Positions 16,959 to 32,150 of a stretch of DNA of 37,310 nt are shown piece by piece; position 1 is the stretch's first letter, and each line of letters begins with the position of its first letter. The translations under genes were made by a program, and so were the position numbers. Below the pieces are notes generated by a model. The model was given only the letters and a program-made list of their open reading frames with translations. It did no database searches and was not told where the DNA came from. Origin of the DNA: Eubacteriales bacterium. GTDB taxonomy: Bacteria; Bacillota; Clostridia; Lachnospirales; Lachnospiraceae. The stretch is taken from the NCBI GenBank assembly GCA_030524175.1, contig JAUNHC010000048.1, positions 1 through 37,310 of the forward strand, in the 5' to 3' direction.

Positions 16959-18107
16959 ATGGATATGTCAATTCGTTTCCCGCATTTGGGACTGGAACTG
17001 GATTATGTAGGGAAATCCCTCCACATTTTTGGTTTTGAAATCACAATATATGGAATCCTGATTGCAGTGGGAATGCTTCTTGGCATAGCCTTTGTGGTGC
17101 TGGAGGCGAAACGCAGCAATGAGAATCAGGACATGTATCTTGACATGGTGATAATTTCCCTGATCGCGGCTGTAGCAGGCGCCCGCCTGTATTATGTATG
17201 CTTTTCCTGGAACCTTTATAAAGGGAATATTCTTGAGATTTTTAATACCCGAAGCGGAGGGATGGCTATCTATGGGGGACTTCTGGGAGGATTGCTTGCC
17301 GCTGCTTTATTCTGCCGCATACGTAAGCTTCCTTTCTGGAAGATGGCAGATACTGCCAGTATGGGAATTCTCATCGGTCAGATAATAGGAAGATGGGGAA
17401 ACTTTTTTAACCGGGAATCCTTCGGGGAATATACCGACAGCAGTCTGGCCATGCAGCTGCCTTTATCCGCCGTCAGAGCCAGTGAAGTGACATCGCAGAT
17501 GCGGGAAAATCTTATTACAGACAATGGGATTTCTTACATTCAGGTACACCCTGTATTTCTTTACGAGAGCATTTGGTGTCTTGTTCTTCTCCTGTTTTTA
17601 ATGTTTTGGAGAAGAAAAAAGCTGTTTCAGGGTGAACTTATCATGGAGTATCTTGCTGGCTATGGGTTCGGGCGCTTTTTCATTGAATGGCTCAGGACTG
17701 ACCAGCTTTTGTTTCCCGGAACGAAAATTGCAGTTTCCCAAATAGTGTCTGCCTTCCTGTTTTTCTTTTTCGGCATAATTGTGATCGTGCGCCGTATCAT
17801 GGTGAAAAAGCGGGCGGCAGTACGTAAGCGCAGGAGAGAAAAAGCTCATGAAGCAAGAGAAGAGGCAGAGGAAACGCAGAACGATGCTGAGGAAAACCAT
17901 GAGAGCTCAGAGGAAGTACAAGGTGATGCCCACAAAGCCCCTGGGGAACCGGAGGAAACACAGGGCAGAGTTGAGACGATCCAGGAGACTTCAGAGGAAG
18001 CGCAGGAGATTACTTCTGAAGATCAGGAGACTTCAGAGGAAACTCAATGGAAGGATATCCAGCCGGAAGGATATTCAGAAGAATCTGAGGATAAGCCAGA
18101 AGCTTGA
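16959..18107 (+). CDS. lgt: Prolipoprotein diacylglyceryl transferase with long acidic tail
   Basis: A membrane enzyme that moves diacylglycerol from phosphatidylglycerol to the lipobox cysteine of prolipoproteins, such as the solute-binding lipoprotein at 32890. Core residues (about 1-275) have seven predicted membrane segments, the signature GRWGNFFNRESFGEYTD and HPVFLYES. After a basic stretch (about 272-292, VRRIMVKKRAAVRKRRREK), about 90 extra residues form a tail rich in Glu, Thr, Ser and Gln with repeated EETQ, ETSEE and SEEVQ-like units. Typical Lgt proteins are about 260-330 residues, and this is 382. AAGGTG precedes the start. Confidence 0.93.
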   Translation: MDMSIRFPHLGLELDYVGKSLHIFGFEITIYGILIAVGMLLGIAFVVLEAKRSNENQDMYLDMVIISLIAAVAGARLYYVCFSWNLYKGNILEIFNTRSGGMAIYGGLLGGLLAAALFCRIRKLPFWKMADTASMGILIGQIIGRWGNFFNRESFGEYTDSSLAMQLPLSAVRASEVTSQMRENLITDNGISYIQVHPVFLYESIWCLVLLLFLMFWRRKKLFQGELIMEYLAGYGFGRFFIEWLRTDQLLFPGTKIAVSQIVSAFLFFFFGIIVIVRRIMVKKRAAVRKRRREKAHEAREEAEETQNDAEENHESSEEVQGDAHKAPGEPEETQGRVETIQETSEEAQEITSEDQETSEETQWKDIQPEGYSEESEDKPEA

Positions 18108-20524: not shown

Positions 20525-22762
20525 TTGAGCAATAAAAGAGATCGAACGAAAAGAAAACCAAAGAGAAAAATAAATTATCAAATGAGAAGGAAGCTAGTAA
20601 TGCTGTTTGGAGTGGTGTTACTAGCTTTAGTAGGTTTGACGGCCAGAATTACGTATATCAATGCCACCAGCGGCAGTAAGTACAAGAAGCAGGTTCTAAG
20701 TCAGGCCCAGCAGAAGTATGAGAGCCGTGTGCTGCCGGCAAAGAGAGGTGACATTTACGATAAGAACGGAAACCTTCTGGCAACCAGCAATAAGGTTTAC
20801 AATGTCATCCTTGACTGTAAGGCAGTGAATTCCGATGAGGATTATGTGGAGCCTACAGTTCGGGCCCTTACAGAAGTATTGGGGCTGGATGAGGAGGATG
20901 TCCGTTCCAGGCTTACCTCCGAAAAGACGAAGAACAGCCAGTACCAGATCCTTAAGAAGCAGCTCTCTATGGATGAGAAAAAAGCTTTTGAGGAATATAC
21001 CACTGTTCCGGAAGAAACAGTACTGACAGCTGAGCAGATAAAAGAAAGGAACAATGTTAAGGGGATATGGTTCGAGGAGGATTATCTTCGTATTTATCCG
21101 TTTAATGAGACAGCCTGCGATACCATCGGATTTACTTTTGAACGTGACGTGGCTGACTGGGGCCTGGAGGGATACTATAACAGTACCCTTACAGGAATTG
21201 ACGGCAGGCAGTACGGTTATTTCAACAACAATTCTGATGTGGAGCAGACTATTATTGAACCTACAAACGGAAAAAGTATTGAGACGACCATTGATATCGG
21301 AGCACAGCAGATCGTAGAGAAGTATGTCAACGGCTTCAATGAACTGATGGGGGCAAAGAATGTGGGTGTGATCGTGGAAAATCCTTCCACTGGTGAGATC
21401 ATTGCCATGGACGGAGGCGACCGCTATGACCTCAATACTCCCAGAGATTTGTCAAATGTTTATACGGAAGAAGAAATTAAGAAAATGAATGATGCTGAGA
21501 CTGTGGATGCACTTAATTCTATGTGGAGCAATTACTGCATCACAGATGCTTATGAGCCGGGTTCCACTGTGAAGCCTATTGTAATGGCATCAGCCCTTGA
21601 AAAAGGAGCAATCTCTTCCAATGACAGTTTTGTGTGCGATGGATTCCAGAACTTCGGCGCTGAGGGAAGCATCACCACCATCAAGTGTGCTGCCTATCCG
21701 GGAGCTCATGGAACAGAGAGTTTATCAGAGGTTATAGCTAATTCCTGTAATGACGGAATGATGCAGATAGCCGCCAAGATGGGGAACGAACAGTTTATCA
21801 AAGCACAGAGCCTGTTTAATTTCGGGACAAGGACAGGTATTGACCTTCCAAATGAAGGTGCAGGCATTATCCATACCACTGAGACCATGGGCGAGACTGA
21901 GCTTGCCTGCTCGGCTTTCGGACAGGGATTTACCTGTACTATGATCCAGGAGATCAACGCCATGTGCGCTGCCATCAACGGAGGTTATTATTACCAGCCT
22001 CATCTTGTCACAAGGATTAAAGACAGCAACGGCGGTGTGATCAAAAACATTACGCCTACGCTTCTCAAGCAGACAATATCCTCCAATATATCCGCAGATA
22101 TCCGCAGCTACATGCAGGCCAGCGTGGAGAGCGGTACCAGCCATTACTCCAAAGTGGAGGGCTACAGCTCAGGGGGTAAGACAGGAACAGCGGAGAAGCT
22201 TCCCCGGGGAAATAAGAAATATCTTGTATCCTTTATCGGGTTTGCGCCGGTGGATAACCCGGCAGTAGTTATCTATGTGGTAGTGGATGAACCTAACGCA
22301 GAGGATCAGGCAACCAGTACTTATCCCCAGTATATCGCTCAGGGGATACTTTCTGAATTGCTTCCTTACCTGAATGTTGCCCCTGATGAAGCATCTGACG
22401 GTTATGTACCTGAGACAGAGATTTGGGAAGGCTTTAACGGTCACCTGAAGAGTACCTCAGGAGCCGATGTTGATGAATATGGAAACCTGGTGGACGGTGA
22501 GGGCAACCGAATTGACCTTGAAGGAAACCGCATTGACGAAAATGGTTATCTTCTGGATGAAAACGGAGATTACCGGCTGGATGACAACGGAGAGTACATT
22601 ATGTCCCAGAATGTGGGAACTTCGGGCAGTACGGAGGGCAATCTTCCTGAAGCCGTATCCGACACCAGTGTGCCGGGGCCGCTGGAGGACGATTCAGACC
22701 CCATCCAGGGAAATGACATGGAAAGCGAAGGTCTGACCAACGAGGAAGCCGGTCTGGAGTAA
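20525..22762 (+). CDS. ftsI: Class B penicillin-binding protein (FtsI/PBP2B type) with repeat tail
   Basis: The septal peptidoglycan transpeptidase partner of FtsW. It has 745 residues. A basic cytoplasmic N-terminus and a membrane anchor (about 26-46) precede the dimerisation domain, which contains KRGDIYDKNGNLLA. The transpeptidase domain has all three motifs: STVK (Ser347), SCN (407-409) and KTGT (552-555). There are no PASTA domains. Instead an acidic extracellular tail (about 620-745) contains six D-x-x-G-type repeats (650-692). The start is TTG. AGGTGA (20515-20520) overlaps the ftsL stop and sits four bases upstream, while the first in-frame ATG at 20582 has no comparable site and would cut off the basic N-terminus. 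Confidence 0.92.
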   Translation: MSNKRDRTKRKPKRKINYQMRRKLVMLFGVVLLALVGLTARITYINATSGSKYKKQVLSQAQQKYESRVLPAKRGDIYDKNGNLLATSNKVYNVILDCKAVNSDEDYVEPTVRALTEVLGLDEEDVRSRLTSEKTKNSQYQILKKQLSMDEKKAFEEYTTVPEETVLTAEQIKERNNVKGIWFEEDYLRIYPFNETACDTIGFTFERDVADWGLEGYYNSTLTGIDGRQYGYFNNNSDVEQTIIEPTNGKSIETTIDIGAQQIVEKYVNGFNELMGAKNVGVIVENPSTGEIIAMDGGDRYDLNTPRDLSNVYTEEEIKKMNDAETVDALNSMWSNYCITDAYEPGSTVKPIVMASALEKGAISSNDSFVCDGFQNFGAEGSITTIKCAAYPGAHGTESLSEVIANSCNDGMMQIAAKMGNEQFIKAQSLFNFGTRTGIDLPNEGAGIIHTTETMGETELACSAFGQGFTCTMIQEINAMCAAINGGYYYQPHLVTRIKDSNGGVIKNITPTLLKQTISSNISADIRSYMQASVESGTSHYSKVEGYSSGGKTGTAEKLPRGNKKYLVSFIGFAPVDNPAVVIYVVVDEPNAEDQATSTYPQYIAQGILSELLPYLNVAPDEASDGYVPETEIWEGFNGHLKSTSGADVDEYGNLVDGEGNRIDLEGNRIDENGYLLDENGDYRLDDNGEYIMSQNVGTSGSTEGNLPEAVSDTSVPGPLEDDSDPIQGNDMESEGLTNEEAGLE
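22472..22600 (+). repeat. Six tandem D-x-x-G repeats in FtsI tail
   Basis: This segment encodes residues 650-692 of the FtsI-type PBP: DEYGNLV, DGEGNRI, DLEGNRI, DENGYLL, DENGDYRL, DDNGEYI. The unit is seven residues (one unit eight): Asp, two variable residues, Gly, two variable residues, then an aliphatic. The repeats lie outside the cell, after the catalytic domain. Confidence 0.85.
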
Positions 22763-28274: not shown

Positions 28275-28297
28275 GAGGCCCTTTAGGAGTGAAAGGC

Positions 28298-29599
28298 TTG
28301 AGAGACATTCGCATTGTAGGTGGAAGGCCCCTTCACGGGAGCATTTCCATACAAGGCTCCAAAAATGCCGCACTGCCCATGATGGCAGCATCGCTTTTGC
28401 ACAGGGGAGTCAGCGTTCTTAAGGGCTGTCCCAGGATTGCAGATGTTTTTTGTATGGAGGAAATTCTCCGGGAACTGGGTGCGGTGACCTGGTGGGAGGA
28501 CCATGATTTATATATGGATTGCACGTTGGCGGATAAAACGGAAATCTCGGGCATTTATACGGGAAAAATGCGTTCATCAGTCATACTTTTGGGCGCAATG
28601 CTTGGAAGAAGCAGAAAAGGCAGACTGGGTTATCCCGGAGGCTGTGTGATCGGGGAGCGTCCTATTGATCTGCATCTCTATGCCTTACGGCAGCTGGGTG
28701 CAGATATTGAGGAAGGACCCTTTCTTATTTCCGCATCCTGTGACAGGCTGACGGGCGGGGAAATATCCTTTGCCAAATGCAGCGTGGGCGCAACAGAACA
28801 GGGAATCCTGGCTGCCGTGCTGGCCAGGGGGGATACTTGCCTTAAGAACTGTGCCAGGGAGCCGGAGATCCAGTGGCTTTGCCGCTATCTCAGGACTATG
28901 GGGGCGTGCATTGAGGGAGAGGGAAGTGACTGCATCAGGATCACGGGTGTGGAAGGACTGGAACACGGAGAGATGGAGGTGCCGCCGGACCGTATTGTGG
29001 CAGGAACTTATATTTGTGCGGCAGCTGCCACACGCGGAACGATCATCATTGAAAATCCGCCGGTGGATGAATTGGATGCCTTCCTGGAAGTATATCGGAA
29101 AATGGGTGGACAATATAAACTAAAGAGTGGTAAACTAATAGCTGACAGCAGCGGTATAGGTTATCCGCTTTCGTTTCTGGAAACAGAGGTGTATCCTGGT
29201 TTTCCCACAGATTTACAGTCCCCTGTAATGGCTGTATTGACTACCATTTCCGGGGAAAGCTATATCCGGGAGCAGATATTTGAGGACCGTTACAAGGCTG
29301 CTGTTGAATTGAACCGCATGGGTGCTGATATTACGGTGGAAGGCCGTGATGCCAGGATTATAGGCGGCAGTTCTCTGCGGGGGTGTACTGTGACGGCACA
29401 GGAACTGCGGGGAGGTGCGGCCCTTGTGCTGGCGGCTTTGGCGGCTGAGGGAGTTACCCGTGTGCAGGGATATCAGTATATCCGCCGGGGCTATGAGCAC
29501 ATTTGCGAAGACTTGAATACTTTAGGCGGTATGTTAGAAAAGGACACAGGAATCAGACTATATGAGAGCATCCAATTACCGAAAAAACTTATTAATTAA
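28298..29599 (+). CDS. murA: UDP-GlcNAc 1-carboxyvinyltransferase MurA
   Basis: Transfers enolpyruvate from PEP to UDP-GlcNAc, the first committed step of peptidoglycan synthesis. It has 433 residues. The TTG at 28298 is preferred: AGGAG (28285-28289) is eight bases upstream, and the numbering then gives Lys22-Asn23 in GSKNAALP and catalytic Cys116 in GGCVIGERPIDLH, almost exactly the E. coli positions (22-23 and 115). A GTG at 28289 would add three residues. Other motifs: EVYPGFPTDLQSPVMA and ELRGGAALVLAALAA. It lies between ftsW and ftsQ, where murG and other mur genes are common. The cysteine predicts fosfomycin sensitivity of this copy. Confidence 0.92.
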   Translation: MRDIRIVGGRPLHGSISIQGSKNAALPMMAASLLHRGVSVLKGCPRIADVFCMEEILRELGAVTWWEDHDLYMDCTLADKTEISGIYTGKMRSSVILLGAMLGRSRKGRLGYPGGCVIGERPIDLHLYALRQLGADIEEGPFLISASCDRLTGGEISFAKCSVGATEQGILAAVLARGDTCLKNCAREPEIQWLCRYLRTMGACIEGEGSDCIRITGVEGLEHGEMEVPPDRIVAGTYICAAAATRGTIIIENPPVDELDAFLEVYRKMGGQYKLKSGKLIADSSGIGYPLSFLETEVYPGFPTDLQSPVMAVLTTISGESYIREQIFEDRYKAAVELNRMGADITVEGRDARIIGGSSLRGCTVTAQELRGGAALVLAALAAEGVTRVQGYQYIRRGYEHICEDLNTLGGMLEKDTGIRLYESIQLPKKLIN

Positions 29600-30836
29600 T
29601 AAAAACACTTGGAAATTTATCTGGGGCGGCCTGGCGGCAGTGATCGTGGCAGGAGTAATCTTCTTTTTTACCTATTATAAGGTAGATTCCGTGGAAGTGA
29701 TGGGCAGCAGCCATTACAGTGAGGAAGAAGTAAAGGAGATGATCCTGCGGGGGCCCTTGGCCTCCAATTCTGTCCTGGCTCCTTTGCTGTACAGTAAAAA
29801 TTCATCGGAAGGCATTCCCTTTGTTGATGGATTTTCAGTGACACAGATCAACAGAAGCACCATATGCATCAGTGTAAAGGAGAAGAAGCCGGTAGGCTGC
29901 ATCCCGTATCTTGACAGCTTTGTATATTTTGACCGGAACGGAATATTTATTGAAGGTTCCAAAACCAGGGATGAGTCGGTTCCCTATTTTGACGGAATAC
30001 AGGTCAACCATGTCATAATGAATGAAAAACTGCCCATCAAGGGGACTACAGTTCTCAATACGGCAGTGGCGCTTTCCACTATATTCCAGAAGAATCAGAT
30101 GATACCTGACCACATCCAGTTTGATGACAATTACCAGATAAGCCTTCTGTACGGGGATATCACTGTGCTTCTTGGCAAGGACAAGTATCTGGAGGACAAA
30201 ATGACACGTGTTCTGGCCATTCTTCCCATGCTTACAGGGGAGAAGGGAATCCTGCATCTTGAGAACATTTCGGAAAACTCCACAAACATTAACTTTGAAC
30301 GTGAAGTATCAGAGGTGACGGCAGAGACCTGGACAGGCGGTTACGATGAAAACGGAGAATTCACCGGGGATGGTGAATATGACGAAAACGGCCGGCATGT
30401 AGGCCCCAAGCCAAAGACAGAGCTGGATTATGCACTGGAAAATTGGGTGGGAGGCTACGATGAGGAAGGTGACTATACCGGTGCAGGAGAGTATGATTCC
30501 GCCGGAAATTATGTAGGTCCCGCACCTACACAGGAGACTCTGGATGCAAACGGCGACTGGAAAGGCGGCTATGAAGAAGACGGAACCTACACAGGAACAG
30601 GCCTATATGACAGAGAAGGAAACTATGCAGGGGAAAAGCCCGGCGGTGAGGTGAGCGGAGAAGGCCAGCCTGAAGGTGAAGATGCCGATGATCCCCAAAG
30701 TGAGGATTCCTGGGAAAATCAGGAAAACAGCGGTGAGGAATACGGAGGCTATGAGGAAGAAGATGGAAACTATGATGCTGAAGGCAATGGTTACACCCCT
30801 GAAGATTCCTATGAAAGCCAGGACGACAGCTATTAA
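29562..30836 (+). CDS. ftsQ: Cell division protein FtsQ/DivIB with triple repeat tail
   Basis: A bitopic membrane protein that scaffolds the FtsL/FtsB complex at the septum. It has 424 residues. Short cytoplasmic N-terminus, membrane segment about 18-38 (FIWGGLAAVIVAGVIFFFTYY), then a POTRA domain (about 40-115, starting VDSVEVMGSSHYSEEEV) and a beta domain (about 115-255). From residue 257 the protein continues with three 38-residue repeats whose tryptophans fall at 257, 295 and 333, then an E/G/D/Y-rich tail to the end. Bacillus DivIB is about 263 residues, so roughly 165 residues are extra. The start overlaps murA by 38 bases with no strong ribosome site, which suggests translational coupling. 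Confidence 0.88.
   Translation: MRASNYRKNLLINKNTWKFIWGGLAAVIVAGVIFFFTYYKVDSVEVMGSSHYSEEEVKEMILRGPLASNSVLAPLLYSKNSSEGIPFVDGFSVTQINRSTICISVKEKKPVGCIPYLDSFVYFDRNGIFIEGSKTRDESVPYFDGIQVNHVIMNEKLPIKGTTVLNTAVALSTIFQKNQMIPDHIQFDDNYQISLLYGDITVLLGKDKYLEDKMTRVLAILPMLTGEKGILHLENISENSTNINFEREVSEVTAETWTGGYDENGEFTGDGEYDENGRHVGPKPKTELDYALENWVGGYDEEGDYTGAGEYDSAGNYVGPAPTQETLDANGDWKGGYEEDGTYTGTGLYDREGNYAGEKPGGEVSGEGQPEGEDADDPQSEDSWENQENSGEEYGGYEEEDGNYDAEGNGYTPEDSYESQDDSY
30330..30641 (+). repeat. Three 114-bp repeats in ftsQ
   Basis: Units start at 30330, 30444 and 30558, exactly 114 bases apart. Each encodes a core of about 28 residues: W-x-G-G-Y-[DE]-E-x-G-x-[FY]-T-G-x-G-x-Y-D-x-x-G-x-x-x-G-x-x-P. Examples are GGYDENGEFTGDGEYDENG and GGYDEEGDYTGAGEYDSAG. 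The pattern faintly recalls MORN repeats, but I do not assign it to that family. Confidence 0.9.
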
Positions 30837-30989: not shown

Positions 30990-32150
30990 TTGTTAGAGAT
31001 TATGACAAATGAGGCTGAGTCATCTGCGAAGATAATTGTCATTGGCGTAGGTGGAGCCGGAAATAATGCAGTAAACAGAATGGTGGAAGAAGCCATTGGC
31101 GGAGTAGAGTTTGTAGGTGTCAACACTGATAAGCAGGCTTTGACTCTGTGTAAAGCTCCGACTGTACTTCAGATTGGTGAAAAAATAACCAAAGGCCTTG
31201 GTGCGGGGGCACAGCCCGAAGTTGGACAGAAGGCTGCTGAGGAGAGCATAGAGGAAGTAAAACAGTTGATAGAAGGCGCAGATATGGTATTCGTCACTTG
31301 TGGAATGGGCGGCGGAACCGGAACCGGTGCCGCACCTGTAATCGCAGCAGCTGCGAAAGAGATGGGTATCCTTACTGTCGGTGTTGTTACCAAGCCTTTC
31401 CGTTTTGAAGCAAAAACCCGTATGAACAATGCCCTTGCAGGGATTGAAAATCTGAAGAAATCGGTGGATACATTAATTGTGATCCCCAATGATAAATTAC
31501 TGGAAATCGTTGACCGCCGGACAACAATGCCCGAGGCTTTAAGAAAAGCAGATGAAGTTCTGCAGCAGGCAGTACAGGGTATCACAGACCTGATCAACCT
31601 GCCGGCACTGATCAACCTTGACTTTGCAGACGTACAGACTGTGATGACGGACAAGGGTATCGCCCATATCGGAATCGGCGAAGCAAGAGGGGACGACAAG
31701 GCTATGGAAGCTGTTCAGCAGGCTGTATCCTCACCGCTTCTGGAAACTACGATCAAAGGTGCAACACACGTTATCATCAATATTTCCGGAGATATCTCAC
31801 TCATGGATGCCAACGATGCGGCCAGCTATGTTCAGGAACTTACTGGAGAAGATGCAAACATTATCTTTGGTGCTATGTATGATGATTCTGTTGCAGATTA
31901 TGCGAGAATCACTGTCATTGCAACAGGACTTACAGATTCTGTCCAGAGCACAAGCCCCTTCGGCGGAAGAAGTACAACCTCTCCTTTCGCAGCGAAGAGA
32001 AGCAATCCGGGCGCAGGACAGACCGGCGGCGTAAATATGCCAAGCTTCAACCTTCCTACAATGAATGCAACTCCATTCACCCCGAAGGCTCCGTCCAGTA
32101 CAGTACAGAAGAAAGATATCCAGATTCCGGATTTCCTGAGAAACAGATAG
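30990..32150 (+). CDS. ftsZ: Cell division tubulin homologue FtsZ
   Basis: A GTPase that polymerises into the Z ring and recruits the division machinery. It has 386 residues. GTP-binding motifs: [18 protein letters not shown] near the N-terminus and the tubulin signature [10 protein letters not shown] (about 109-118). The T7 synergy loop is [12 protein letters not shown] variable Ser/Thr/Pro-rich linker (about 320-375) leads to the conserved C-terminal tail [11 protein letters not shown], the docking site for partners such as SepF or FtsA. ftsA does not occur upstream as in many dcw clusters, so anchoring may rely on SepF or an FtsA elsewhere. The start codon is TTG. Confidence 0.97.

Follow-up and report, generated by a model that had tools for sequence, protein, structure and literature searches.

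In a Blautia, the dcw-cluster open reading frame (ORF) 29562–30836 encodes an FtsQ/DivIB homologue whose C-terminal end carries a genus-wide repeat domain that is real, strongly constrained and apparently undescribed. It lies in a stretch of 37,310 nucleotides, hereafter the window, and searches of the open-access literature yielded no description of the repeat. What we observe is the place of the array in the protein, the modules of which it is made and the constraint that acts on them. The finding goes beyond a single-strain curiosity but stops short of a demonstrated new mechanism.

The ORF is flanked by a murA-like gene (28289–29599), which it overlaps by 38 bp, and by ftsZ (30990–32150). 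The Pfam model FtsQ_DivIB_C gives it 18.4 bits, the cut-off being 21, and FtsQ matches were obtained in 290 of 299 family genomes. In the full-length AlphaFold model, a helix at residues 14–38 is followed by strands and helices that alternate up to residue 247, a region that we take to be the POTRA-like and beta domains, and elsewhere in the family the majority of the listed FtsQ matches end near residue 248. Since the model has a single N-terminal membrane helix, the array would lie outside the membrane. The proposal of a sequence-only reading of this DNA, namely an FtsQ/DivIB with a repeat domain behind a normal one, is supported by the place in the dcw cluster, by the model and by the positions of the units (Table 1).

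Table 1 Coordinates of the ftsQ ORF and its parts, of the class B PBP of the same cluster (all in the window) and of two NusA ORFs from other genera
Feature	Position	Strand	Basis or remark
ftsQ/divIB ORF, 424 aa	29562..30836	+	Place in dcw cluster; Pfam FtsQ_DivIB_C, 18.4 bits; predicted model
Membrane helix, residues 14–38	29601..29675	+	Helix H14–38 in AlphaFold model
Unit 1, W257–P284, 28 aa	30330..30413	+	56.9 bits (unit profile)
Linker 1, 10 aa	30414..30443	+	Short helix 287–293 in model
Unit 2, W295–P322, 28 aa	30444..30527	+	55.9 bits (unit profile)
Linker 2, 10 aa	30528..30557	+	Short helix 324–329 in model
Unit 3, W333–P360, 28 aa	30558..30641	+	51.2 bits (unit profile)
Distal tail, 64 aa, acidic, Tyr-rich, fast-evolving	30642..30833	+	Composition; predicted disorder
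Class B PBP (PBP_dimer and Transpeptidase)	20525..22762	+	Candidate partner
PBP tail residues 650–694, D-x-x-G-N/Y repeats of 7–8 residues	22472..22606	+	DUF3659 just under cut-off
Conserved C-terminal PBP peptide NDMESEGLTNEEAGLE	22712..22759	+	
NusA with repeat tails	L126:337-1695, L127:379-1947		

The units begin at Trp257, Trp295 and Trp333 (positions 30330, 30444 and 30558), with a spacing of 38 and again 38 residues, equivalent to 114 bp. At a lag of 38, 39 of the 87 compared pairs in the first 125 tail residues are identical, whereas 5000 shuffles that preserved the composition gave no more than 25 matches, each taken at its best lag between 10 and 62; coordinates and lag test thus agree with the exact period that had been read from the letters. 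The core pattern put forward at the same time, W-x-G-G-Y-[DE]-E-x-G-x-[FY]-T-G-x-G-x-Y-D-x-x-G, fits all three units. Tandem Repeats Finder reported no 114-bp array at the FtsQ repeat region and, between units, 8 to 14 of 28 third codon positions match, as against 19 to 21 of 28 first and second positions. The poor agreement at third positions rules against a recent DNA duplication and, combined with the better agreement at the first two, indicates that it is the protein, and not the DNA, that has been kept. The unit has, in addition, an internal period of 12 residues, and also of 6, which had gone unmentioned in the earlier reading: within-unit identity over 130 units reaches 0.47 at lag 12 and 0.35 at lag 6, and is 0.02 to 0.03 at lags 7 and 13. 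The unit is made of four hexads G-x-Y-x-x-x behind W-x, that is, of two 12-residue half-units with the consensus sequences GGYDEEGDYTGD and GEYDENGNYVGP.

Structure prediction, which had been suggested for this C-terminal region, gives ordered units and a disordered end. The best of five AlphaFold models of the array alone, built on an alignment of only 15 close sequences, has a mean pLDDT of 85.7 and a pTM of 0.65 (mean pLDDT of the others 84.6, 81.3, 72.1 and 68.1), values that, like the conservation described below, may be inflated by the low-complexity composition. In the predicted array, bridge residues recur at intervals of about six, and each linker forms a short helix. In the model of the whole protein (mean pLDDT 71.3, pTM 0.41), pLDDT lies between 82 and 87 in the ten-residue blocks that cover 261 to 360 and remains below 50 for residues 363–424. 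The last 64 residues hold 24 Asp and Glu and neither Lys nor Arg, which bears out the acidic tail of the earlier reading. Foldseek found no match of the model in the PDB at E up to 10.

The array is a property of the genus. An FtsQ match was obtained in 63 of 64 genus genomes, and 55 of the 63 ORFs bear units, counted at 30 bits or more: none in 8, one in 13, two in 7, three in 34 and five in 1 (in G343, where FtsQ is split across two contigs, the tail-bearing fragment was used). The first unit stands 3 to 10 residues past the equivalent of residue 250 in 50 of the 55 unit-bearing ORFs, and neighbouring units are spaced by 38 residues in 78 of 79 pairs. The sole break, of 105 residues, occurs in the FtsQ of G315 (L082), where five units are arranged as 3+2 with a Glu-rich insert between them. 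The copy-number comparison that had been called for accordingly yields 0 to 5 units across the genus, with conserved copies in other species. Tails of other kinds are also found. In two zero-unit ORFs (L096 and L099) the FtsQ tail is a nearly perfect (SYDDG)n run, which likely changes fast in length, and four zero- or one-unit ORFs (L101, L106, L108 and L110) have DxDxDGxxD-like tail stretches, e.g., YLDxDGDGFNDFTG, presumably a cation-binding pattern. FtsQ tails from other Lachnospiraceae genera (L115, L116, L117, L141 and L147) end in a common element, DGYGYIDPYTGxYI; with this different ending in five of them, the way in which DivIB tails end seems to be specific to the clade.

Outside the genus the unit is hardly encountered. 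The 130 units reduce to 50 that are non-redundant; 49 of these, a truncated one being omitted, went into a profile (A3). In the genome of origin, the next match after the three FtsQ copies has an E of 0.6. Among 397 family genomes, 9 were matched at E up to 0.01, comprising two Blautia FtsQ, two NusA and five weak matches (E 8e-4 to 9e-3), some of which looked unrelated; among 398 phylum genomes, the 5 matched at the same threshold are the genome of origin and four borderline cases (E 0.0045 to 0.0076). The profile search across Lachnospiraceae proposed beforehand thus finds conserved copies in the genus.

None of the Pfam and NCBIfam models matches the unit. MORN (PF02493), named in the sequence-only reading as a known domain that the repeat might turn out to be, is likewise a short Gly/Tyr-rich repeat, and the likeness does not extend to the profiles: it has no Pfam match here, and hhalign gives a probability of 2.3% against a Lachnospiraceae MORN stretch that is itself recognised as MORN at 2.1e-7. 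No choline/cell-wall-binding repeat, EF-hand or dockerin was found among the FtsQ Pfam hits (E up to 10 and up to 1), in searches whose HMMER filters discard most weak matches. The hits to PUA_3, EFTUD2 (best E 0.0013, in 3 of 15 members), TruB-C_2 and DUF7483 are weak and concern few members, and were taken as effects of composition. With conserved copies in other species and no match to MORN or to another described domain, the repeat is neither an old acquaintance nor restricted to one strain, the two outcomes that the earlier reading had named as its undoing.

A quick tree of the FtsQ core with 65 rows (62 from the genus and 3 from other genera) gathers all unit-bearing species in one group of 57 rows (SH-aLRT 94). 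Zero-unit rows outside this group are L096/L099, L104/L105 and L102, the last beside L003 from another genus, and three more lie inside. By parsimony, presence changed 4 times and copy number 18 times with profile counts, or 19 times with a looser pattern, figures that are estimates because 19 of the 62 inner branches are open. In 30 three-copy species, units at the same position have between-species identities of 0.79, 0.78 and 0.71; for units at different positions, the values are 0.68, 0.62 and 0.61 between species and 0.68, 0.61 and 0.62 within species. As likeness at the same position exceeds that across positions, and copies from one species are not closer to each other, the positions appear to be old, kept and not homogenised, and gene conversion between units is ruled against on the same grounds.

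Constraint was measured on 32 of the 34 three-copy ORFs, those in which both spacings are 38 residues (496 pairs). Identity averages 0.614 in the FtsQ core, 0.752 in the units and 0.571 in the linkers, and the distal tail, with gaps in 43% of its columns, reaches 0.420 in its aligned part (465 pairs). Median dN/dS, obtained from pairs with a core dS below 1.5 and descriptive in view of shared ancestry and near-saturated synonymous sites, is 0.063 for the core (12 pairs), 0.012 for the units (9), 0.038 for the linkers (11) and 0.226 for the tail (5). Conservation is higher in the units, which show signs of purifying selection, than in the FtsQ core, whereas the distal tail drifts.

In the same cluster, one class B PBP ends in a tail of D-x-x-G-N repeats with a conserved end peptide, which is unusual for a divisome protein even taken by itself. 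The core of the terminal peptide (the NDMESEGLTNEEAGLE motif) is present in all 61 genus PBP tails compared, out of 64 genus genomes in all, and at least four D-x-x-G-N/Y repeats are found by pattern in 56 of the 61, two unit-like ones included. When 299 family genomes were queried with the PBP tail, 15 were matched at E up to 0.01, 13 of them outside the genus; four of these 13 weak matches were recognised by eye as PBPs and have the terminal peptide only and no repeats, so that the repeats may be confined to the genus. Another of the 13, an ORF without PBP motif (L244, in G084), ends in DEWGNRID-type (DxxGN) repeats that resemble the Blautia PBP tail. Pfam PASTA matches neither of the two cluster PBPs (E up to 0.001). 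The best NCBIfam match of both class B PBPs is SpoVD, under the cut-off, and therefore the division enzyme could be either; in C. difficile, dcw-encoded synthases are reported to have sporulation roles (PMC10693644). Elsewhere in the window, the prolipoprotein transferase Lgt (16959–18107) ends in a long tail that is rich in Glu, Gln and Thr and contains tandem repeats.

The relation between the two tails is not simple. By profile, the PBP tail and the FtsQ unit are not alike (hhalign probability 19%), and in four genomes a three-unit FtsQ coexists with a PBP that lacks the repeats. In two genomes whose FtsQ is devoid of units (G308 and G310), a unit-like stretch is found in the PBP tail (E 2.6e-8 and 2.8e-5), and both of these tails fall among the 7 compared genomes without an FtsQ unit. 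The idea that the unit alternates between the two proteins was rejected, as the two unit-like tails among 61 come from sister species and represent one event. In G340, it is the FtsQ tail that consists of 12-residue half-units, read separately on two contig ends. In the FtsQ-core tree, G308, G310 and G340 all fall outside the group with units, which suggests that the half-unit predates the full unit and has been carried by either protein, these cases being a handful of events and not a statistical association.

Half-units are also present away from the divisome. The NusA C-termini of two other Lachnospiraceae genera (G427 and G295) have 12-residue repeats of the YDENGNYIG type, and a stretch of the G295 tail is 65% identical to the FtsQ unit over 23 columns. 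These tails (L126 and L127) share with FtsQ the half-units YDENGNYIG and GGYDENGVYTGDG; they differ in having no Trp in the repeats and, in L126, in being a head-to-tail, 12-residue, linker-free array. A NusA-tail query matched 9 of 397 family genomes, Gly/Tyr/Gln-rich and MORN proteins among them. NusA is cytoplasmic, which makes a ligand found only outside the cell less likely, as the module needs none as such, and indicates that the module is not specific to the divisome. The NusA half-units may be convergent or transplanted.

From these observations we infer, tentatively, that the array is a Blautia-specific gamma domain of DivIB acting as a protein-docking arm, with the tail of the cluster's class B PBP as its most likely partner. 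The array would be the form that the extracytoplasmic C-terminal (gamma) domain of DivIB takes in this genus. The arm would start about 10 residues past the last beta-domain strand, each 28-residue unit forming a small module and each 10-residue linker holding the constant 38-residue spacing, with the disordered acidic tail at the end. It would contact members of the septal synthase complex, most probably the C-terminal extension of the PBP, in a manner resembling the contact that is predicted for the beta and gamma domains of S. aureus DivIB with the PASTA domains of PBP1 (PMC10994846). More copies would add avidity or reach, which would explain why any number from 1 to 5 is tolerated. Among the ligands suggested by the earlier reading, namely wall polymer, calcium or another division protein, a protein is preferred, since the array occupies the position of the gamma domain, the loss of which disturbs DivIB in S. 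aureus: without residues 373–439, directional movement is reported to be abolished and the protein mislocalised (PMC10994846). In B. subtilis, the C-terminal domain of DivIB is reported to be critical for the interaction with PBP2B (PMC11988411).

The docking arm is consistent with the constraint on the units, their position-specific identity, the 38-residue spacing, the predicted order and the gamma-like position, as well as with the repeat tail on the cluster PBP, with the unit-like PBP tail in two species without an FtsQ unit and with the apparent part of the EAGR box, discussed below, in protein interactions. Against it stand the half-units of NusA, the unlike profile of the PBP tail, the repeat-less PBPs beside three-unit FtsQ, the common origin of the two unit-like PBP tails, the lack of a Foldseek match in the PDB and the caveat of low complexity. 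Since 8 of 63 FtsQ ORFs are without a full unit, the unit is dispensable for division in some species.

A plain spacer and wall binding are the main rivals of docking. The units might be a tandem-expanded form of the acidic, Gly/Tyr/Asn-rich and fast-changing tails of Lachnospiraceae, a spacer or solubility bristle that adds length and charge, as could be expected from the unrelated acidic tails of zero-unit species, (SYDDG)n runs included, from the acidic tails on Lgt and on the two NusA, and from the 18 or so copy-number changes estimated by parsimony (19 by the looser pattern). We consider this unlikely, as the selection data speak against it: the W, G and Y positions are kept at a dN/dS near 0.01, compared with 0.226 in the tail (few pairs), and the 38-residue spacing in 78 of 79 pairs and the position-specific sequence of the units have been retained.

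In the other main rival, which we judge rather improbable, the units would bind peptidoglycan, or an anionic wall polymer via Mg2+ or Ca2+, and so hold FtsQ at the septal wall. The units and linkers are rich in Tyr and Trp, with a mean net charge of about -19 (32 species), and the DxDxDGxxD-like stretches of L101, L106, L108 and L110 recall a cation-binding pattern; the strong negative charge would, on the other hand, disfavour direct contact with teichoic acid. S. aureus DivIB is reported to bind peptidoglycan through its extracytoplasmic domain (PMC9652317). The close half-units in NusA, and the absence of any wall-binding, EF-hand or dockerin family among the Pfam hits, argue against a wall-binding arm.

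A genus-specific mutual clasp, in which similar turn-module tails of FtsQ and of the class B PBP would grip each other and replace the gamma–PASTA contact, appears highly doubtful; the module would have arisen from a 12-residue half-unit that is still present in early-branching species on either of the two proteins (the PBP in G308 and G310, FtsQ in G340).

The role of the DivIB gamma domain in Gram-positive bacteria is not settled, and Blautia provides a natural series of copy numbers (0, 1, 2, 3 and 5). Together with the position-specific conservation, and in a common gut genus, this series opens gamma function to experiment. Moreover, the array defines a repeat that Pfam and NCBIfam do not match, with a candidate second half on a PBP of the same cluster.

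As regards solved structures, the top match of profile A2 among 177,635 PDB sequences was 4dcz (E 0.04, gap-free over 36 residues), the EAGR box of Mycoplasma genitalium MG200, a segment that Pfam confirms as EAGR. Like the FtsQ unit, the EAGR box (PF16713) is aromatic and glycine rich, with 24 residues in four G-x-aromatic hexads and D-E in hexads 1 and 3; unlike it, the box occurs in intracellular gliding proteins, has more Trp and forms no 38-residue array in the segment seen. Judged by sequence, it is the nearest solved look-alike of the unit, with kinship unproven. True homology, i.e., a Firmicute/Mollicute protein-interaction fold shared through common ancestry by FtsQ, NusA and gliding proteins, is very unlikely, for although 4dcz came first without gaps, with the four-hexad layout and D-E at the same two places, although hhalign gives probabilities of 86.7% (A3) and 58.4% (A2) for this pair picked after a search, and although A2 gives 4dcz 17.7 bits where none of 1979 scored shuffles exceeds 10.2, the 28-residue A3 yields 17.4 bits, close to the 15.9 reached by shuffles and the 16.6 of an unrelated ORF, 4dcz is missing from the A3 matches, Pfam EAGR_box matches nothing in the genome of origin at E up to 10 and is absent from the FtsQ Pfam hits, and the Foldseek search of the PDB returned nothing. 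The EAGR box itself is described as apparently taking part in protein interactions (PMC9262362).

Among divisome components, the closest counterparts of the array, read as a docking arm, are two. The PASTA domains of division PBPs are also repeat modules on extracytoplasmic divisome tails, with the difference that they sit on the PBP and not on DivIB. The DivIB gamma domain is a flexible tail. In S. aureus and B. subtilis it is, like the Blautia array, an extracytoplasmic C-terminal region that directly follows the beta domain; unlike the array, it is not described, in the excerpts available, as a succession of conserved modules.
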